IMG/VR virus record: IMGVR_UViG_3300044640_001110
Coordinates: 1 to 37,611 of that record
Strand: one strand, 5' to 3'
Source: a virus
DNA: 37,611 bases
A program made the position numbers and the translations under genes. This document shows, one piece after another, positions 433 through 14,815 of this stretch. Below the pieces are notes generated by a model that saw only the letters and a program-made list of their open reading frames with translations, was not told the DNA's origin and did no database searches. Position 1 is the first letter of the stretch, and the number at the start of each line of letters is the position of its first letter.

Positions 433-2979
433 TCACTCCTTTCCCATCTGGGCTATCAGGTCCAGCAGCACACCCTGTAGCTTCTGCTTATTCTGCAGTC
501 GCTCATAGATGCGGTGCTCTACCTCGGTTGCTTCTATATGAACTACGTTCGACACATGTCTCTTACCGATGCGTTCGACGCGGCCATTCGCTTGAACATA
601 CTGTTCGTTACTGGTTATAGGTCCGTACCATACAACGGTTGACGCTGCTGTCAAGGTCAATCCATGCGCCATTGTTGCAGGATGTGCGATAAGTATGCGC
701 GGGTCACGCGCGTTCTGAAAGTTGTGGAAGATGTCGTTGCGCTTGGATGACGACACCTCACCGTTGACGACGGCCACGGTCCAGTGCTTGGACAGCTCAC
801 GCTCCAGCATGCGCAGCGTGCCGGTCAGCGGGACGAACAGGATGACCTTCTCCCCTGCCTCCTCGATGACCTCCTTGACCGCGTTGATGCGTGGCGCGCA
901 GTCCAGCTCCAGTCTCTCGCCGTGCTCGCCGTAGGCCACGCCCAGTGCGATCTGAATGAGCTTCTGCGCCTTGACCGCCTCGTTGACCGCCGTGATCGTG
1001 CCGCCCGCAACCTCGGTGACCAGCTGCTTGACCATCTGCTTGTAGTGCTTGGTCTGCTCTGCGGTCATCTCCACCTTGCGGGTCTGGATGACGGTGTCCG
1101 GCAGGTCCAGACAGTCCTCCCGGGTGAAGCGGATGGATGGCTGGAGCACGTGCTTCACAATATCCACGCTGTCCGGGCGGGGCACAAACTTCCACTGGCC
1201 GATCTTGGTCATGACCTGCTCTCGGAAACCTGTGTAGCTCTTGGACATGTGCGGGCTGTTGACCAGCTTGGCCAGTGCCCATGCGTCCGTCGGCTCGTTG
1301 GGGGTGGGGGTGCCGGTCATCAGCCACAGGTTCAGGTCGGGCTGCACCTGCAGCCAGCGGTAGAACTGTTTGAACCGCCGGGTCGACGGGTTCCTGTAGA
1401 CCGCTGCCTCGTCGATGATGACGAGGTCGAACTTGTCCAGCGCCTCCTTGGCGATGATCGGGAAGCCATCGTGGTTGATGATGTAGAAGTCCGCCTCGGT
1501 GTTCAGCATCTTGATGCGCCGCTTGGCATCGCCATAGAGGGTGACCGACTTACGGTGGTAGAACTCCTTGAACACGGCGTCGCCCCACACACGTTCCAGC
1601 GTGGACAGCGGCGACAGGATCAGCACCTTCTTGATGACGCCAGCATTCATGAGGAAGTCGGCCGCCCACAAGGCGCTGACCGTCTTGCCTGTGTTGCCCG
1701 TGGCGAAGATGCACCCGTTGCGCCGCAAGATCAGGTACGTGCTCGGCACCATGAAGCAGTACTTGAAGCCGTCCGTGGATGGGACGCACTCCATAGAACG
1801 CAGGCGTCGGCCACCCGTGGCCCCTAGAATGCCTACGCTGCCGCGCTTGGTGGTACTCACGCCCACCACGTACTCGATCGCGCTGCGTTCCTTCCTCTCG
1901 TAGGTCTGCAGCCGCGCGGTGTAGCCGCACGCAGCGAAGGCGTACTGGACGAAGTCCGCGCTCTCCTTGGTAGAGGTGAAGAACTCCACCCGCGGCTTGT
2001 TCTCCCGCACAGTCCCGTCCCAGTGCGGCACTTCATCGGCGATGACCCGCAGCTGGTGTAGCGTAGCCTGCCAGAATTGTGGCCCGAACACCTTGGTTCT
2101 GAGCGGCGGCATGAAGGACAACTTGTGAAACCCTTCGGGGGCACACTCCCTGTAGCTGTACGGGATGTGGGCAGCATCCAGCAAGTCGCGCAGCCTGTCC
2201 TTCTTGCGCTGCTTTTTGACGCGGACATAGCAAAGGTTGCCGCCTTCCGGGATATACCCATCAGCGATCGCTGCCACCATCACACGCAACTGTGCGTCGG
2301 TCAGCGACAGCCCGACCCCGCCCGGCACGGCGAATGTCGTAGGGATGGCAGCGTCCGAGAACCCGACCCGGTCTGCGGACTTCTGCACCCGGTCGCCGCC
2401 AACCCAAGCATCATGGCGGTGCAGGAGCTCCACGGCCGTCGTAGTTTCGACCTTGGCCGCATTCGTCTTGGACTGCAGCAGCACCCTGTGCTCTGGCGAC
2501 AGCATCTGATCGATACCATAGCGGGTCTTCAGCCTGACCATGGTGTCGCATGGCAGCTTTACGAATTGCGGCTCGGCAACAAAGTCAATCCGCTTGGTGT
2601 CTGGCCAGTACTGCGCCACCGCCCCACCTTCGTAGTCGGCAATACGCTGCCACCCTGTCGGAGACAGGTACTCCGTATCCGCGTCCACGCAGCCAATCGA
2701 GTTCAGCACAAGGCAGCGCTTGTGCAGAGTAAGGAAGTCGGCCGTGGATTTCTGGTGGTCGTAGGGTGTGAACTGCCCGGGCCAGTCGTACTGGTAGCCG
2801 ATGGGCGACGGCGGGTTGAACCCCAGCTCCTTGAGGCGCTGCATCTCCGGCACACGGTGCGGGATCACGACGATATTAGGGTCAGACGGCAGTTGCCGCG
2901 ACTTGGGTATGCACTCTAGGACCCTGTTGGGGTCATTCAGTTTGAGGGCTACGGCCCTCGCGGACTCGACGACAAGCAT
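433..2979 (-). CDS. SNF2-family DEAD/H helicase interrupted by an intein
   Basis: The 848-residue precursor includes a 333-residue intein (residues 97-429), so the mature helicase would have about 515 residues. The extein has SNF2/superfamily 2 helicase motifs. The Walker A site is SIG/TGKT, split exactly by the intein. It also has a DEAA box at about 523-526, TGTP (motif III) at about 555-558 and QANGRVERIGK (motif VI) at about 796-806. It likely uses ATP to translocate on or remodel DNA in replication or recombination. The start at 2979 lies 47 bp inside the end of the VRR-NUC gene and has an AGGG-type site upstream. SNF2-like helicases commonly sit beside VRR-NUC nucleases in phage replication modules. 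Activity must depend on intein removal, because the P-loop is otherwise broken. Confidence 0.93.
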   Translation of the reverse strand: MLVVESARAVALKLNDPNRVLECIPKSRQLPSDPNIVVIPHRVPEMQRLKELGFNPPSPIGYQYDWPGQFTPYDHQKSTADFLTLHKRCLVLNSIGCVDADTEYLSPTGWQRIADYEGGAVAQYWPDTKRIDFVAEPQFVKLPCDTMVRLKTRYGIDQMLSPEHRVLLQSKTNAAKVETTTAVELLHRHDAWVGGDRVQKSADRVGFSDAAIPTTFAVPGGVGLSLTDAQLRVMVAAIADGYIPEGGNLCYVRVKKQRKKDRLRDLLDAAHIPYSYRECAPEGFHKLSFMPPLRTKVFGPQFWQATLHQLRVIADEVPHWDGTVRENKPRVEFFTSTKESADFVQYAFAACGYTARLQTYERKERSAIEYVVGVSTTKRGSVGILGATGGRRLRSMECVPSTDGFKYCFMVPSTYLILRRNGCIFATGNTGKTVSALWAADFLMNAGVIKKVLILSPLSTLERVWGDAVFKEFYHRKSVTLYGDAKRRIKMLNTEADFYIINHDGFPIIAKEALDKFDLVIIDEAAVYRNPSTRRFKQFYRWLQVQPDLNLWLMTGTPTPNEPTDAWALAKLVNSPHMSKSYTGFREQVMTKIGQWKFVPRPDSVDIVKHVLQPSIRFTREDCLDLPDTVIQTRKVEMTAEQTKHYKQMVKQLVTEVAGGTITAVNEAVKAQKLIQIALGVAYGEHGERLELDCAPRINAVKEVIEEAGEKVILFVPLTGTLRMLERELSKHWTVAVVNGEVSSSKRNDIFHNFQNARDPRILIAHPATMAHGLTLTAASTVVWYGPITSNEQYVQANGRVERIGKRHVSNVVHIEATEVEHRIYERLQNKQKLQGVLLDLIAQMGKE
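1693..2691 (-). mobile_element. Intein with LAGLIDADG-type endonuclease domain, inserted in the helicase Walker A motif
   Basis: In-frame protein insertion of 333 residues. It starts with Cys (CVDADTEYLSPTGWQ, the Hint N-terminal block), has SPEHRVLL as block B, and ends in RRNGCIFATGN followed by Thr as the +1 residue. Between the splicing blocks lies a degenerate DOD-type endonuclease: AAIADGYI (first acidic motif, intein residues 140-147), a basic KKQRKKDRL segment, then VIADEVPHWDGT (second acidic motif, 216-227). The residue before the terminal Asn is Gly instead of the usual His. As I recall, this occurs in a subset of phage inteins with a similar RRNG..F.TGN ending. Joining the exteins restores an SIGTGKT P-loop, which fixes the boundaries. 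Confidence 0.9.
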
Positions 2980-3262
2980 GTATCCATTCCCTTACCTGCT
3001 CAATCGTGGCCTTGTCGTAGACCACGAAACACTTCCCACCCGCTGCCTCGATGTCTGCCATACACTTGATCTGCAGTGCTGTCGGCTTCTTGGTCGCGTC
3101 AGCTTTACACTCGATACCCACGAACAAGCCCTCCACAACCGCAACTCGGTCTGGAATACCTGCACTACCAAATGGTCCGGCTTGCGGGGGGTAAAACCAC
3201 ACCCGCTCAGCCTTCATCATCTTGTCGAGCGCTGCCTTGATGCGCCCCTCTGGAGTAGCCAT
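2933..3262 (-). CDS. VRR-NUC domain nuclease
   Basis: This 109-residue protein is the size of stand-alone phage VRR-NUC proteins, a branch of the PD-(D/E)XK nucleases. The signature is present in order: an N-terminal helical segment, GIPD (35-38), GIECKA (Glu51, Lys53) and TALQ (61-64). These correspond to the metal-binding Asp, the E-x-K pair and the conserved Q. In other systems the family cuts branched or flap DNA structures. The start at 3262 follows AGGGGTG. The 3' end overlaps the helicase gene by 47 bp, so the two are likely co-translated. A recombination or replication-repair role is inferred from the family and the neighbours. Confidence 0.9.
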   Translation of the reverse strand: MATPEGRIKAALDKMMKAERVWFYPPQAGPFGSAGIPDRVAVVEGLFVGIECKADATKKPTALQIKCMADIEAAGGKCFVVYDKATIEQVREWIHACRRVREGRSPQTE

Positions 3263-3285
3263 GGTGTCACCCCTCTACTTTACAG

Positions 3286-3957
3286 TCAAGATGCGAACTC
3301 GCAGAAACCTTTACACGGGCAGTACTTGCACAGCCCGCTCGGCTTGGCCGGCCAGTTGCCTGACTCCAGCGACTTCTCCACACGGTTGATCCGGGTAAGC
3401 AGCTTGGTCCACATCCCGTCGGCATGCTCCCGCTTGTACGTCTCCCGGTCGGTCGCGTTCTCCTTCGTCCATACAAACATGGACGTGACAGCGGTGACCT
3501 CCGGGTTGAAGGCGAAGGTTGCAAGAGCAAACATCTCCAGCTGGTCGAAGTCGGGGCGGCGCTTGCCGGTCTTCCAGTCCACCACGATGGCCTTGGCATC
3601 CGGCCGGATGATGAGCACGTCCAGCTTGAACCGCAGCCATGCGTCCTCGTCGAACCAGCCGGTGGGCTGGAGGTCGCTGGTCAGGGTGTACTCCTGCTCG
3701 ATCGTGAGGGTAGCCCCACCCTTGGCAACGTGCGACGCGAGCACATCACACAGCGGCTGCAGTGCGACTGTCTCTGCAGGCAATGGGGCGGTGCCCTTGA
3801 GGGCATCCTCCAGCTGCTTGTGCACCCGCTCACCGTAGACCGTGGCTTCGCCGACGCTGTCCTTGACCTCCTTGGTGATGCGCTGGTGGTAGTACCGCTT
3901 GGGGCAGTTCTCGTACATCTTGAGGGCGGTGTAGGAGTGGGCAAGTTTGGTGGTCAT
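3286..3957 (-). CDS. RecB/Cas4-like PD-(D/E)XK exonuclease with Cys cluster
   Basis: The protein has 223 residues from ATG 3957. A longer open frame exists, but this start has GGAG upstream and is coupled to the preceding stop (TGATG). It begins LAHSYTALKMYENCPKRYY, the typical opening of RecB-type nuclease domains. GERVH (42-46) supplies a catalytic His, FKLDVL supplies Asp113 and VVDWKTGK supplies Asp127/Lys129. The C-terminus carries CKYCPCKGFC (Cys210, 213, 215, 219), which with Cys18 could bind a 4Fe-4S cluster as in Cas4/AddB. It probably degrades or resects DNA ends in phage recombination. The gene follows the polymerase, separated from it only by a duplicated mini-cassette. Confidence 0.9.
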   Translation of the reverse strand: MTTKLAHSYTALKMYENCPKRYYHQRITKEVKDSVGEATVYGERVHKQLEDALKGTAPLPAETVALQPLCDVLASHVAKGGATLTIEQEYTLTSDLQPTGWFDEDAWLRFKLDVLIIRPDAKAIVVDWKTGKRRPDFDQLEMFALATFAFNPEVTAVTSMFVWTKENATDRETYKREHADGMWTKLLTRINRVEKSLESGNWPAKPSGLCKYCPCKGFCEFAS

Positions 3958-4023
3958 CACGTGTCTCCATAGGTGTAAGCCGTGCCTGCCTCGCAGGCCA
4001 CGGGCAGGTCGGGTGCCCAAGTC
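3950..4023. repeat. Direct repeat copy 1 (74 bp), polymerase 3'-end duplication
   Basis: The 74 bp at 3950-4023 match 4110-4183 with a single mismatch (position 4014 versus 4174) at an offset of 160 bp. This copy sits just before the nuclease gene and supplies its ribosome site. Confidence 0.95.
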
Positions 4024-4025
4024 AT
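3957..4025 (-). CDS. 22-residue duplicated tail of DNA polymerase (mini-ORF)
   Basis: The ORF runs from ATG 4025 to a TGA at 3957-3959. Its product (MTWAPDLPVACEAGTAYTYGDT in two parts: MTWAPDLPVA then CEAGTAYTYGDT) repeats the last 21 residues of the polymerase. It overlaps the upstream mini-gene (ATGA) and the downstream nuclease start (TGATG). It is most likely a by-product of the 160-bp cassette duplication. Its TATGGAGACACG end carries the GGAG ribosome site for the nuclease, so it may matter as a translation leader rather than as a peptide. Whether the peptide is made or stable cannot be told. Confidence 0.55.
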   Translation of the reverse strand: MTWAPDLPVACEAGTAYTYGDT

Positions 4026-4117
4026 GGCTTGCCCTTTGCCGGTCTGCAGTTAATCGGATACGGACACCTTCCAGCCGCCGCATTCCAGCCGCAGACGCAG
4101 ATTTTCTTTGTGGTCAT
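4022..4117 (-). CDS. Cys-rich 31-residue mini-protein in a duplicated cassette
   Basis: The ORF runs from ATG 4117 (TGATG overlap with the polymerase stop) to TGA at 4022-4024. The product begins MTTKKICVCGW and continues NAAAGRCPYPINC, ending in a basic RPAKGKP. The four cysteines (CxC, then C and C) could bind one zinc ion. Its ribosome site (GGAG) lies inside the last polymerase codons. The start context is the same as that of the downstream nuclease (ACACGTGATGACCAC), because both derive from the same duplicated sequence. The family is unrecognised. A small nucleic-acid-binding or protein-binding knuckle is a guess from composition only. Confidence 0.6.
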   Translation of the reverse strand: MTTKKICVCGWNAAAGRCPYPINCRPAKGKP

Positions 4118-4183
4118 CACGTGTCTCCATAGGTGTAAGCCGTGCCTGCCTCGCAGGCCACGGGCAGGTCGGGCGCCCAAGTC
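4110..4183. repeat. Direct repeat copy 2 (74 bp), original polymerase 3' end
   Basis: This is the partner of 3950-4023. It encodes the natural C-terminus of the DNA polymerase, so it is taken as the original copy. The segment 4024-4109 between the repeats is the part unique to the inserted cassette. Confidence 0.95.
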
Positions 4184-6828
4184 GGGGCGGTGGACATGAT
4201 GGCCACGATGTCCTTCTCCGCCTGCTCGGCCTGATCCTCTGGCACGATGCAGACGTTCTCGTCGTGGACTTGGAAGGCGACGTGATACCCGGCGTCCCTG
4301 ATCGCCAGCATCTGCTCGGCCACGACAATGCGGGCCAGCGCCTGAGTGCAGTTGTGCACTACGAAAGGTCCCGAAGAACCTCGGACCACGAAGCGAGAGT
4401 TGGGTCCGGCGTTGCGGAGGTCATAGACAGGTTCCGCTGCCACCGATAGAACAACGTCGACTTCGGCACGCCCGTCAGTCTGTGTGCTCTGGTAAGGTCC
4501 ACGGGTAGAGCCCCGCGCCTGTTCCCAGCCTGCACGGTGTAGGATGTCCAGCGACAGTTCCCGGGTGTGTAGTCCCCGTTGTTGTCCTTCCGGTCCAGTG
4601 TCAGACCCGACTGGTAGGTGGGGCCCATGTCCCCCCAGAACGCCGCGAAGGAGGCATCCCACTCCGGGCATACTCTGATCCCGCGTGCTCCATAGTTGCG
4701 CCACGCTTGGTGTGAGGGTAGCCGGCACCGGTCCCGCATCGAGCGCCATACCCAGTAGGCCGGGTGATTGGCCATGCCGTGAGTCTTGTTCGCCGCCGCC
4801 ATCATGCAGCCACACGAGGAACTCCCGCCACGCTGTGCCCACTTTTCCACACCACTGGCTACGCGCGTCACCTCCGTCCCGCATATGCACCGGAATACCC
4901 ACAGCGAACGGCGACCGTTCGTGCCCTGATACCGTACTCCCGTCAGGTAACCAAAAGTCTGACCTGTATAGTCCTTCGCACGATGATGCACGGCGCCACC
5001 CTTTCTCGGTTAGGACCTCATGGTCCGGGGTCATGCGGACCCCATCGAGTTTGGTAGTAGACTGTTCGCCTTGACTAATCAACCCGTCATGCTGCACCCA
5101 TTGCACGCCGTCCCAAAGCCGGTCATCAGTCAGCACGTCCACAATCGGGACCCATCCCCGCTGGGTAAGTACTTGCGTGTCGCCAGCCAAACAGTTCTCC
5201 GCCACCATCGCGCCATAGATGCGGCTCTGGCCGGGGATCGTGCCGCTGTCCGCGTCCTTCGGGTCGCCGGCCAGCCGAGCCTTCATGGCTCTGTCAAACA
5301 TGCGCCTGTCTTGGATGTAGGTGAACTGCCGGGTGGCGGCCGTGAGCCCGTGGTACTGCAGCCGCATGCCGTTGGGCAGGAGGATGCCATCGGCGTCATA
5401 GGTCAGGATGTTACCGATCCGCCCCCTGCGCCCAGCCGCCATGCTGGACAGGGCGTAGCCACACTCACCCCACAGCTTCACGATCTGGTGGTAGCCTGTA
5501 CGGTACGTGCGCACCAGACGGTCGACGTCCTCCTCGGGGATGTCCACAGGTGGCTTGCCGCGCTTCAGGGTCAGCTGAAACTTCTCTGCCGACATGCCGT
5601 AGCCCAGCCCAAGGATGGCGGACTTGCCGACGTGGCGCTCCAGCTTGTCGGCCTTGGTCACCTTACGGCCATAGAAGACCGTGGCGAACTCGGAGTACAC
5701 GTCCCGCCCCTCGCGGAACCATTGCACAAGGTCGCTCTGCCCGGCGAGGTAGGCCACCATGCGCGCCTCGATCTGGCTGCTGTCACAGCTGATGATCTTG
5801 TGCCCCTCGGGGGCCCGAAGGGCTTGGCGCAGCGCACCACCACGGGGCAGGTTCTGGAGGTTCATCTTGTCGCCACCAGAGAAGCGGCCAGTGTGCGCGC
5901 CATAGTAGTTGAGCATGATGGGCAGCCGGCCACGGCCAGCCACTCCGATCAGGGAGGAGGTGCGCGTCTCCTCCAGCGTGGACTTGAGCCCAAGCCGTGC
6001 GGCCACCAGTGTCTGGACCACGGGGTTGTGGTGATCCTGCAGCGCGAGGAAGTCGAGGTCTGTCTTGGCGAAGGCGAAGGCTTCCTTGCCAGTGGTGCCG
6101 CTGATCTTGGTTGGTGGCTCTACCCCGCAGCGGCGCAGCAGCTTGGCGAACTTGTCGTTGGACATGAGGATGTCCTTGCCCTTGCCTCCAAGGGTGTCGA
6201 GCAGGGCCTGCTTCTCTGCCTGCACCACTACAAGGTGTGCCTCCAGCTTGTCCACGTCCAGCTCCACCGTCGGCTCGGTGTACATCCGGAGCGTGCTGTC
6301 GATGATCCGGAGCTCAGATACCGGGAACCCTTTGCGCAGCTTCTTGAACAGGGCGTAGGTCAGGTCCACGTCGTTGGCGCAGTACCTCATGTAGGCCGCA
6401 AGTTCTGCAGAGCCGAAGTCCCTGCGCCGTTTGCCGATCGCGAGGATGACCTCCTCGCCCTTCTGGCCCAACTCATAGTGCTGGGCCAATGCCTTGAGGC
6501 TACCACCCACAGTGGACTGGTGCTTGGGTCGTGCCATGGATAGCGTGTCGAGCCAGAGCTTGGGCTTGATACCGAAGTGCCACGACAGGATGGCGCCGTC
6601 GAACAGGGTGTTGTGGCAGAGGATCGCCTTGTCGCTGTAGTCGAGCGACTTGAGGAACTTGCCCGGGTTGTCCCCGGTGTAGGTATCCACTGGCCCGTCG
6701 TTGACCTTGACGCCGACGCCGATGACCTCGAACAGAGGTGATCGTACGTAACTTTCTGTCGTGATCTTAGACAGGGAGTAATCCCTGTCGTAGTATGTCT
6801 CAAAGTCGATAGTAACTATGTCCATCAT
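4117..6828 (-). CDS. Family A DNA polymerase (PolA-type) with 3'-5' exonuclease, interrupted by an intein
   Basis: The precursor has 903 residues. Removing the 281-residue intein (546-826) leaves a 622-residue polymerase, the usual size for phage family A enzymes. The DEDD exonuclease domain is at the N-terminus: DFETYY (Asp8, Glu10), CHNTLFDGAIL (Asp77) and ANDVDLTYALF (Asp153, Asp155). Polymerase motif A is CDSSQIEAR (Asp349), the O-helix is RHVGKSAILGLGYG (about 398-411) and motif C is VHDE (854-857). The intein lies in the conserved VAEN/CTQALAR segment before motif C. The enzyme is presumably the phage replicase with proofreading. The gene overlaps the upstream MazZ-like gene (GAATGATG) and feeds by TGATG coupling into the mini-cassette and nuclease. 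Its catalytic core is incomplete until splicing occurs. Confidence 0.96.
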   Translation of the reverse strand: MMDIVTIDFETYYDRDYSLSKITTESYVRSPLFEVIGVGVKVNDGPVDTYTGDNPGKFLKSLDYSDKAILCHNTLFDGAILSWHFGIKPKLWLDTLSMARPKHQSTVGGSLKALAQHYELGQKGEEVILAIGKRRRDFGSAELAAYMRYCANDVDLTYALFKKLRKGFPVSELRIIDSTLRMYTEPTVELDVDKLEAHLVVVQAEKQALLDTLGGKGKDILMSNDKFAKLLRRCGVEPPTKISGTTGKEAFAFAKTDLDFLALQDHHNPVVQTLVAARLGLKSTLEETRTSSLIGVAGRGRLPIMLNYYGAHTGRFSGGDKMNLQNLPRGGALRQALRAPEGHKIISCDSSQIEARMVAYLAGQSDLVQWFREGRDVYSEFATVFYGRKVTKADKLERHVGKSAILGLGYGMSAEKFQLTLKRGKPPVDIPEEDVDRLVRTYRTGYHQIVKLWGECGYALSSMAAGRRGRIGNILTYDADGILLPNGMRLQYHGLTAATRQFTYIQDRRMFDRAMKARLAGDPKDADSGTIPGQSRIYGAMVAENCLAGDTQVLTQRGWVPIVDVLTDDRLWDGVQWVQHDGLISQGEQSTTKLDGVRMTPDHEVLTEKGWRRASSCEGLYRSDFWLPDGSTVSGHERSPFAVGIPVHMRDGGDARSQWCGKVGTAWREFLVWLHDGGGEQDSRHGQSPGLLGMALDAGPVPATLTPSVAQLWSTRDQSMPGVGCLLRGVLGGHGPHLPVGSDTGPEGQQRGLHTRELSLDILHRAGWEQARGSTRGPYQSTQTDGRAEVDVVLSVAAEPVYDLRNAGPNSRFVVRGSSGPFVVHNCTQALARIVVAEQMLAIRDAGYHVAFQVHDENVCIVPEDQAEQAEKDIVAIMSTAPTWAPDLPVACEAGTAYTYGDT
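4351..5193 (-). mobile_element. Intein in the DNA polymerase, with no in-frame endonuclease
   Basis: This 281-residue insertion begins CLAGDTQVLTQRGWVPI (block A). It has MTPDHEVLTEKGWRRA as block B (54-69), PVYDLRNAGPNSRFVVRG as block F and PFVVHN as block G, with Cys as the +1 residue. Those blocks make a complete class 1 Hint splicing domain with the normal HN ending. The 170 or so residues between block B and block F are Gly/Ser/Arg-rich and show no LAGLIDADG or HNH motif in this frame. The same DNA encodes an HNH endonuclease in the +1 frame (4359-4991). The boundaries are set by restoration of the VAENCTQALAR polymerase segment. Confidence 0.93.
4359..4991 (-). CDS. HNH homing endonuclease nested out of frame inside the polymerase intein
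   Basis: A 210-residue protein in the +1 frame relative to the intein, entirely inside it. It starts at GTG 4991 directly after intein block B and has its own ribosome site (AAAGGGTGG, about 6 nt upstream). The N-terminal zinc-binding module has FRCICGTEV and SSSCGC. Then come YWVWRSMRDRC and YGARGIRVCPEW, and the HNH core LTLDRKDNNGDYTPGNCRW. The C-terminus has a helix-turn-helix (LTGVPKSTLFYRW), similar to the end of the free-standing HNH protein at 12897-13436. The gene stops 8 bp before the intein ends, so its last codons also encode blocks F and G. It probably cuts intein-less polymerase genes and so spreads the intein. Confidence 0.9.
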   Translation of the reverse strand: MHHRAKDYTGQTFGYLTGVRYQGTNGRRSLWVFRCICGTEVTRVASGVEKWAQRGGSSSCGCMMAAANKTHGMANHPAYWVWRSMRDRCRLPSHQAWRNYGARGIRVCPEWDASFAAFWGDMGPTYQSGLTLDRKDNNGDYTPGNCRWTSYTVQAGNRRGALPVDLTRAHRLTGVPKSTLFYRWQRNLSMTSATPDPTLASWSEVLRDLS

Positions 6829-12053: not shown

Positions 12054-12906
12054 GTGTTACTCCTCCCATGAATGCTGCCATCTTGGCGGCGATAGCGTTG
12101 GCTTCGTCAGCCACTTGTTTGCGCAGGGCAGGGCTGCCCTTGATTGCCTCCTTGCTGTGTCCCACCAGCTTGACCTCCACCTCCTGCCGCATCGCCTCAA
12201 GGTCCGGATCGTCGGTGAAGTTGAGCCGTGGCAGGATGCTGCACAGCTCGATGGCGTTGTCAAACAGGCTGTCGTAGAGCCGACCCTCGGTGTTACCCAA
12301 GCGTTCGGACATCAGCTTAACATGACTGTAAAGCCTCTGCCAAGCCTCTTTCATGGCCGACGAACTGCTTTCTTCGACCCGGCGCTGGATGTCAGCATGG
12401 ATGCTGGACAGCTCGTCGTCAGCCAGCTGCACCCTGAAGTCGTTGGTCGGGACAGGCATGACCACGAGGTCCATCTTGAACTTGTGCAGCAGGTCGTGGA
12501 CATCGGGGTAGTCGGCCGAGTCATAGAGGTTGCCCAAGAACCGCTGCGCCGTGACTTGCAAGGTCGGGTAGTCTGTCAGAAACTTGCGTACCACAAGCTC
12601 CCACTCCGACTTGCGCTTCCGGAACGTGGTCATGAAGGACAGGTAGTTGGAGGTCGGCAGCATGTGGGTGTTCTCCAGCCCCCACGGCAGGGTGTTGGTG
12701 TAGAACTCCCGACGGATGTCACCCGTCATGGTGTGGATGTTGGCCAAGCTGTCGCTCATGGGCAGCAGCTTCTTGTTGTAATTGCCAGCATCCTTGGATG
12801 CGTAGTTGCTGTCGGCCACCTGCTTGGTGGCCTTCTTGTCCAGCTTGCGTGCCGTCCACTGGGAGACGTTGAGCTGGACGAGGAGAGCGCGGTCGCTTAA
12901 CTGCAT
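12046..12906 (-). CDS. Uncharacterised protein between the AAA ATPase and VWA genes (286 aa)
   Basis: The start at 12906 has AAAGGAAAC upstream and lies 10 bp inside the end of the HNH gene. The protein is largely helical, with long charged segments (SYLSFMTTFRKRKSEWELVV; SIHADIQRRVEESSSSAMKE; LRKQVADEANAIAAKMAA). It contains no catalytic motif I can name. Position and character match the DUF3150-like proteins that often lie between MoxR and VWA genes in phages and plasmids. I therefore infer that it is the third part of that module, perhaps an adaptor or client. The family assignment is tentative. Confidence 0.8.
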   Translation of the reverse strand: MQLSDRALLVQLNVSQWTARKLDKKATKQVADSNYASKDAGNYNKKLLPMSDSLANIHTMTGDIRREFYTNTLPWGLENTHMLPTSNYLSFMTTFRKRKSEWELVVRKFLTDYPTLQVTAQRFLGNLYDSADYPDVHDLLHKFKMDLVVMPVPTNDFRVQLADDELSSIHADIQRRVEESSSSAMKEAWQRLYSHVKLMSERLGNTEGRLYDSLFDNAIELCSILPRLNFTDDPDLEAMRQEVEVKLVGHSKEAIKGSPALRKQVADEANAIAAKMAAFMGGVTHA

Positions 12907-13436
12907 GTCGTGTTTCCTTTTCTGTATCTATAATAGAGGGTTGATCGTTTGATGCCGGTGCGCCGCACGGCTTCCTTGATAGACAGTTGCTCTCCGTCCA
13001 CTTCGATGGAAAACTCGGGTCGCTTTGTTGGCCTGCGACCTGCGTCAAACAACTCTGGTGGTGTGACCCCGTGGTCAGCCCTATGCCGGAGCATTGTGTA
13101 AGACAGGCCCAGTTCTTTTGCCCACTTCGCAAGCGGTTGCGTCTTGCCATTGTGTGTAAAGCACCGGTTAGGCCTACGGTTGTGGGCTTGTTCCTCAGGG
13201 GTTGCCCAACGGACATTGTCAGAGGAGTACCCTTTCGCATTGTCTATGCGGTCCAGTGTGTGGGTAGGGGACGGCGGATACCCCACGTCCTTGGCGAACG
13301 CATCGAAAGAACCTACCCAAGTCGGACACATAGAGATGCCGCGGCCGCCGTATAGGTGGTAGCCTGTGTTCCTAGGGTTAAAGCACCGCTGCTTGATGTT
13401 GCACCAGCGTTGGTAGAGCGGGTCGGTCTTTCGCAT
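12897..13436 (-). CDS. Free-standing HNH homing endonuclease
   Basis: A 179-residue protein that starts at 13436 behind AGGAGG. It begins LYQRWCNIKQRCFNP, followed by YGGRGISMCPTWVGSF, and the HNH core HTLDRIDNAKGYSSDNVRWA (about 59-78). Helix-turn-helix repeats follow (LAKWAKELGLSYTMLRHR; IKEAVRRTGIKRSTLYYRY). These are typical of phage HNH homing endonucleases with DNA-reading C-termini. It is inserted between the AAA ATPase and its probable partner, overlapping the downstream start by 10 bp. Its C-terminal motif resembles that of the intein-nested HNH protein at 4359-4991, so the two probably share an origin. Confidence 0.92.
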   Translation of the reverse strand: MRKTDPLYQRWCNIKQRCFNPRNTGYHLYGGRGISMCPTWVGSFDAFAKDVGYPPSPTHTLDRIDNAKGYSSDNVRWATPEEQAHNRRPNRCFTHNGKTQPLAKWAKELGLSYTMLRHRADHGVTPPELFDAGRRPTKRPEFSIEVDGEQLSIKEAVRRTGIKRSTLYYRYRKGNTTCS

Positions 13437-14488: not shown

Positions 14489-14521
14489 TGTGTGGTTTCC
14501 TATGGCTTGTCTCATCAGTGA

Positions 14522-14558
14522 TCAGGGAGCCACCCTGACCAGACCACCCGAAGGTGGT
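14522..14558. other. Two consecutive hairpins between unknown gene and AAA ATPase gene
   Basis: TCAGGG and CCCTGA (14522-14527, 14533-14538) pair around five bases. ACCACC and GGTGGT (14543-14548, 14553-14558) pair around CGAA, which is a stable TTCG loop on the minus strand. No T-run follows on the minus strand, so these look like RNA processing, attenuation or stability elements rather than a full terminator. Confidence 0.5.
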
Positions 14559-14563
14559 TTCGA

Positions 14564-14815
14564 CTATATGTGGGATGCCCATGCACTCTCGACTATGTCG
14601 AAGTTGAACACGAGCGAGTGGAGGGGGGCTGCCACCACCGGGATCATGGTGTCCAGTCTGGTGTCTGATGTCGGGCCGTTCACCAGTTGGCCGAGTCCCT
14701 GAGCGGTGCCCCATGCCCGGATACACCGGACGCTGGTCATGTGTAGATGGCCGTCGACGATGGTGTACGTCCTGCACACCAACACGAAACCGTTTGTAAG
14801 TACCACAATCTTCAT
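14564..14815 (-). CDS. Hypothetical protein (83 aa)
   Basis: ATG 14815 has AGGGGAG upstream and overlaps the repeat-protein stop by 4 bp (ATGA). The sequence starts MKIVVLTNGFVLVCRTYTI, a compact beta-rich opening, and ends in a hydrophobic SLVFNFDIVESAW segment. No family is recognised. Confidence 0.7.
   Translation of the reverse strand: MKIVVLTNGFVLVCRTYTIVDGHLHMTSVRCIRAWGTAQGLGQLVNGPTSDTRLDTMIPVVAAPLHSLVFNFDIVESAWASHI

Follow-up and report, generated by a model that had tools for sequence, protein, structure and literature searches.

An HNH endonuclease gene overprinted in a second reading frame of a phage DNA polymerase intein

The window analyzed here is a viral DNA stretch of 37,611 nucleotides (IMG/VR record IMGVR_UViG_3300044640_001110, positions 1 to 37,611), and all features of its polymerase, intein, and HNH locus lie on the minus strand. 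A continuous open reading frame of 903 aa (4117 to 6828) encodes a family A DNA polymerase, recognized by a Pfam DNA_pol_A match (E = 3.7e-29) and an exo1 domain, and is interrupted by a 281-aa intein in the polymerase frame (4351 to 5193; CLAGD...VVHN). The insertion point is GAMVAEN^CTQALAR, for which clean empty sites are known in relatives. The intein starts with Cys 1 and comprises block A (CLAGDTQVLT), block B (VRMTPDHEVLT, with the catalytic T-P-D-H motif at 5020 to 5031), block F (VYDLRNAGPNSRFVV), and block G (PFVVHN), whose terminal HN is followed by Cys+1 of the C-extein (4348 to 4350). Directly downstream of the gene, an 82-nt direct repeat (95%; 3947 to 4028 and 4107 to 4188) contains a copy of the polymerase 3′ end, possibly the scar of an insertion or recombination event.

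The Hint N-half with blocks A and B (4996 to 5193) is coded in the intein frame only, and the Hint C-half with blocks F and G (4351 to 4428) also encodes the C terminus of an HNH protein. An AlphaFold model of the intein predicted a Hint fold and was confident only at residues 1 to about 80 (pLDDT about 80 to 90 over most of the N-half) and about 250 to 281. The intervening linker (residues 83 to 244; 4462 to 4947) was predicted to be disordered (pLDDT <50), as was most of the stretch that forms the HNH gene in the other frame. The PDB structures ranked 1 to 27 for this model were all inteins or intein-like Hint structures, and the intein profile matched the Mtu RecA intein in the PDB (E = 9e-6). 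Pfam and NCBIfam searches gave no intein or HNH match at E < 0.1, apart from a weak intein_Nterm match (0.09) on the polymerase, and PHROGs and family profiles were needed to detect either element. Judged by its blocks and predicted fold, the insert is a class 1-type intein of the Hint superfamily that would be expected to splice autocatalytically. Rfam searches of the window at the gathering threshold returned no intron, and hence no group I intron RNA core; a Type II hammerhead ribozyme at 14500 to 14565 (minus strand) scored above the gathering score.

Within the intein, in the +1 frame relative to it, lies the overprinted HNH endonuclease gene (4359 to 4991; 210 aa plus stop), which starts with a GTG at 4991 and whose stop codon ends at 4359, 8 nt short of the intein end. 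AGAAAGGGTGG is found just 5′ of the GTG, and the putative ribosome binding site GAAAGGGTGG (4996 to 5005; SD energy, -6.3) doubles as intein codons for (E)KGW. Near the HNH start in the window, neither a sigma-70-like promoter nor a terminator was found. The gene was assigned from a match to the PHROG 374 "HNH endonuclease" profile (E = 5e-51), which covers the zinc ribbon and the HNH core, from a 12-sequence alignment, and from the frame-specific conservation described below. The zinc-ribbon part (CxC ... CGC; 4806 to 4889) has four Cys that are invariant in the alignment and would bind metal, and the core (YWVWRSMRDRC...TLDRKDNNGDYTPGNCRW...NRR; 4515 to 4763) is common to P0004 and I-HmuI (1u3e; E = 0.05). 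The first catalytic His of I-HmuI is replaced by Arg (LDR/LER) in nearly all nested members including the window copy, and only L082 has His. Since free-standing HNH relatives likewise have Arg at this position, the replacement is a trait of the subfamily and not decay of the window copy. Structural neighbors of the HNH model in BFVD were phage proteins named HNH endonuclease; a Foldseek search of the model against the PDB gave no match. By these comparisons the nested protein is an HNH endonuclease of the PHROG 374 kind, which presumably cleaves or nicks DNA.

The first-pass annotation of this DNA had placed the intein and the HNH gene correctly but omitted their strand. Profile searches of both frames, which it had proposed, agreed with its description of a splicing-type intein with complete Hint blocks (C1, TPDH, F/G, HN, and Cys+1) that harbors a separate, intact, out-of-frame HNH gene with its own GTG and putative ribosome site, and whose blocks F and G are co-encoded by the tail of that gene. 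Its observation that the intein frame is free of stops over the 633 nt of the HNH ORF also held. For the window copy alone this is only moderately improbable: 3.7 intein-frame stops would be expected if the HNH protein were recoded synonymously (P = 0.02 for none), and the third frame contains 7. Sequencing error as the source of the two frames was considered and rejected: IMG/VR contigs L003, L001, and L002, from other metagenome assemblies, have polymerase genes (2712 nt) that differ from that of the window by 0, 4, and 9 nt, so the sequencing or assembly frameshift that the earlier reading had thought resequencing might reveal is excluded. The window also has a free-standing HNH gene (12897 to 13436, minus strand); it is related to the nested gene through the HNH core (42% over 83 aa), and not specifically through the C terminus as had been thought.

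Relatives were retrieved with both frames, and each match was classified by profiles of both frames. Among 73 non-redundant related inteins (<90% identity, in a count that excludes polymerases with two inteins), the HNH gene was in the +1 frame in 66 and in the +2 frame in 3, was absent from 4, and was in no case fused in frame as in a bifunctional intein. C1 and the block B TxxH were present in 73/73, and the HN end was present in 69, the remaining 4 being cut short by the profile; at the +1 residue, Cys was scored in 68 and Ser in 1, and the profile truncated the four ends of mini-intein type. The start of the HNH gene is nearly constant in the +1 type and lies around intein nucleotide 200. 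Family members reside in the polA genes of APSE phages, Shewanella phage SFCi1, and Caulobacter phages RW and GB2A; they also occur in many IMG/VR viruses and in contigs that binning assigned to Burkholderiales, Clostridiales, and Verrucomicrobia. Streptococcus and Gardnerella phages have a further +1 type. The window HNH protein is 66 to 92% identical to those nested at the same place and in the same frame in other viruses, and 42 to 49% identical to the nested HNH of APSE-1, Shewanella SFCi1, and Caulobacter RW phages. A DNA-level search of a phage collection recovered polymerase fragments only.

The intein with its nested HNH gene was also detected in phage SNF2 helicases (L043, L044, L121, L138, and L118), and four polymerases (L079, L109, L112, and L115) have nested inteins at two sites, one with a +2 and one with a +1 HNH; the L143 polymerase resembles this group, but its +1 match is partial. 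The +2 type is present in Salmonella, Shigella, and Escherichia phages and is common among isolated phages: the HNH of fEg-Eco19 was matched at ≥80% identity by 163 records, mostly Salmonella phages. Among the records listed, the host gene of the +2 HNH goes by the annotation "intein-containing DNA polymerase precursor" or simply DNA polymerase, and the HNH gene is unmarked. Because at least two host genes (polA and SNF2 helicase) and two relative frames (+1 and +2) are involved, we take nesting or re-framing to have happened more than once. The pairing of intein and nested HNH is old and conserved, and the two are mobile together.

Several further elements were observed. Closely related nested inteins occupy two polA sites a few codons apart, one in L005, L006, L007, and L042 and the other in the window, L048, and L044 (YGGK^C VEN and VEN^C xQA). 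What appear to be more nested inteins, with HNH-like matches in +2, occupy other insertion sites in L144 (2186 to 3697; e.g., GRWGG^C in its polA), L145, and L143. In contig L029, a free-standing HNH relative (3050 to 3355) is located directly upstream of a related polymerase gene, possibly a picture of the neighbor before nesting. The window itself has a second, ordinary-looking intein (CVDADT...FATGN^T) in an SNF2-type helicase ORF (433 to 2979, minus strand). This intein matches LAGLIDADG weakly in its own frame, short of the Pfam cutoff, so the phage seems to combine an in-frame intein with an overprinted one.

Selection on the two frames was assessed from stops, codon-position rates, and protein identity. 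Over the HNH span of 65 non-redundant +1 copies, neither the HNH frame nor the intein frame has a single stop, against 727 in the third frame; the buildup of HNH-frame stops in homologues, which the first-pass annotation had named as speaking against its reading, was not seen in these copies. An intact intein ORF was part of the retrieval criterion for these copies, so synonymous recoding is a fairer test than the stop count. When HNH proteins were recoded with the codon usage of their own genes, 3.7 to 11.9 intein-frame stops were expected per copy, and 0 were observed in 11 of 11. Substitution rates computed from six near-gapless relatives at intein codon positions 1/2/3 were 0.26/0.18/0.51 in the N-half, 0.51/0.22/0.20 in the overlap, and 0.19/0.11/0.17 in blocks F and G, where all positions are slow. 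Intein position 1 corresponds to HNH position 3 in the +1 type, and after block B the fast position moves from intein position 3 to intein position 1; single independent pairs gave p = 3e-8 and 6e-12 for the overlap. A second +1 type showed the same frame-specific pattern (p = 6e-10), and in the +2 type (0.045/0.198/0.073; p = 2e-13) the fast position is intein position 2 because the HNH frame is +2. In the +1 overlap, amino acid identity reached 71% in the HNH frame, compared with 41% for the intein frame and 41.5% for the unused one; the intein-frame value for the linker, 41%, equals that of the unused frame, and in blocks F and G identity was 0.75 in both frames. Taken together, these data indicate that both frames are under selection and that both are held over blocks F and G, the linker sequence apparently being free in the intein frame yet bound to stay open.

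An ATG or GTG is present near the expected HNH start in 65/65 of the +1 copies. In 56 of them, the first start is preceded by an HNH-frame stop at a distance of ≤10 codons (≤3 codons in 26), and in L006 the stop falls at the start itself. These starts and upstream stops favor internal initiation over frameshifting. The putative ribosome site is built of conserved intein codons, either H-E-V as GAGGT or K/E-G-W as ARGGNTGG. Its SD energy was better than the synonymous expectation in 48 of 65 copies, by a test that is weak and partly biased by choice of the best start; the window value is average and no better than the synonymous expectation.

Occupied and empty alleles at exactly the same site were found in close relatives, as for a homing element. 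Four APSE records have joined polymerase flanks (540/540 nt at about 96%), and at least 10 other APSE records carry the intein. The L043 polA (KLYAGKITNN^CVQGAAR) is the empty form of the L044 polA (KLYAGKVCNN[intein]CVQGTAR). Where the Dhillonvirus EP23, with an intein of the +2 type, reads RQIGKA[intein]CELGLG, the E. coli MG1655 phage SECphi18 has RQIGKACELGLG, and the flanks of the two are identical. Distances in the Hint domain correlated better with those in HNH (r = 0.65) than with those in the extein (0.41), which is consistent with transfer of Hint and HNH as a pair. Mini-inteins without HNH occur at the window's site (L142) and at another site (L054 and L056), and in L053 the intein is intact and the HNH has decayed to a remnant, which means that the intein can persist alone. 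On this evidence the Hint and HNH frames tend to travel together, and close relatives either have or lack them at exact sites.

We consider it highly probable that the locus is a composite homing element: splicing of the intein would protect the host protein, and a separately initiated, overprinted HNH endonuclease would spread the element. The polymerase frame would supply a class 1-type intein, with the Hint N-half (A, B), a long disordered linker, and the Hint C-half (F, G), which would excise itself posttranslationally and so restore the polymerase. The +1 frame of the linker and C-half DNA would encode a complete HNH endonuclease (zinc ribbon, HNH core, and helix-turn-helix-like tail), translated on its own from a GTG or ATG just past block B by way of the purine-rich site in the conserved intein codons. 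The endonuclease would then nick or cut intein-less alleles near the insertion site, and repair off the occupied copy would spread the whole unit. Internal-start translation, cleavage, homing, and protein splicing are thus activities that we infer for the composite element; the Arg at the I-HmuI catalytic His position and the weak ribosome-site signal count against it.

The same Arg, together with the decayed HNH of L053, could mean that the HNH frame is a relic, once translated and now merely tolerated inside the linker. We regard this as quite unlikely: the HNH frame is intact in 65/65 copies examined, the overlap is conserved in the HNH frame well above the intein frame, and its fast position is the third codon position of the HNH frame. 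The first-pass annotation had favored another history, in which a free-standing HNH gene like that at 12897 to 13436 recently invaded a small intein in the window lineage and only a harmless frame survived. The related free gene in the same genome and the HNH-less mini-intein at the window's site fit such an event, but the same nesting, frame, and position recur in 66 non-redundant inteins, down to about 42 to 49% HNH identity, and the nested copies are far closer to one another than to the free gene. These copies, and the 66 to 92% identity to equally nested genes, are hard to reconcile with an invasion that was recent or happened only once, and we judge such an event very unlikely.

Two further explanations concern how the products are made. 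A programmed frameshift could fuse the Hint N-half to HNH in place of internal initiation, as both frames overlap for several codons 5′ of the HNH start in most copies; given the stops close upstream of the start in most copies, the stop at the start in L006, and the start codon in every copy, we find this highly improbable. That the insert is instead an intron removed from RNA, with HNH as an ordinary intron-encoded gene, has a precedent in the intron-encoded HNH of a phage polymerase gene (I-PfoP3I, PMC3428280), but the window has no Rfam intron match, and its frame runs continuously through all Hint blocks with C1, TxxH, HN, Cys+1, and a predicted Hint fold. This last explanation is barely credible.

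Beyond the composite homing element itself, it is about an even call whether overprinted inteins form a distinct, widespread class of mobile element that has arisen at least twice (+1 and +2). The HNH gene might be kept out of frame because its expression is thereby freed from splicing and the gene itself is shielded from frameshifting indels, which would break an essential host protein, so that HNH would be lost mainly by in-frame deletion to a mini-intein. In either case, a splicing protein and an endonuclease appear as two overlapping genes on one DNA, repeatedly and in phages of several bacterial phyla, known isolates included (APSE, and about 160 phage records, mostly Salmonella, for the +2 type), and most of the records seen are annotated in a way that conceals one of the two products. 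The arrangement would be a new way of uncoupling an intein from its homing endonuclease. It offers a natural system for the evolution of overlapping genes with a measurable hand-over of selection between frames, and homing is directly testable by a cross with laboratory E. coli phages.

Textbook inteins carry the endonuclease as a fused domain. Like the window element, the bifunctional inteins, such as the in-frame HNH intein of the cyanophage CL131 dCTP deaminase (PMC6293099) and the LAGLIDADG inteins, combine a Hint splicing domain with a homing endonuclease located between blocks B and F. Their endonuclease forms one domain of the intein polypeptide, whereas the window HNH is a separate protein in another frame. 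Doubt had been expressed at the outset that such nesting was undescribed. The literature searched contained no description of an intein with an out-of-frame HNH gene inside it, although a 2025 preprint on actinophage inteins of "non-canonical architecture" (bioRxiv 10.1101/2025.01.02.630785) could contain examples; overprinted-endonuclease inteins seem undescribed as a class. The closest description is of a non-intein element, the ShiLan domain/Pacc40 insertion, for which no splicing of any kind was found and the insert was proposed to be kept in the methylase (Arsenault, Gosselin, Gogarten 2025, PMC11855218). It too is an insertion in a phage gene that is open in the host frame and hides an HNH gene in another frame, with a GTG start near the beginning of the insert and a patchy distribution suggesting homing. 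Unlike the window element, it has no Hint domain, whereas the window has a complete splicing-type intein whose C-terminal splicing blocks are overlapped by HNH.

Group I introns with HNH genes (I-HmuI and I-PfoP3I) likewise interrupt phage DNA polymerase genes as removable inserts and encode an HNH endonuclease that is translated separately. The window insert would differ in being removed by protein splicing, and because of this the endonuclease DNA must stay open in two frames. The same element is present in APSE-1 (NC_000935), where the HNH endonuclease CDS P46 overlaps the DNA polymerase CDS P45 exactly as in the window; it is annotated there as mere overlapping coding sequences, with the P46 start too far downstream, and a later APSE genomics paper mentions neither intein nor HNH. 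The overprinted-HNH intein is a variant of the partnership between inteins and homing endonucleases, not a new chemistry.
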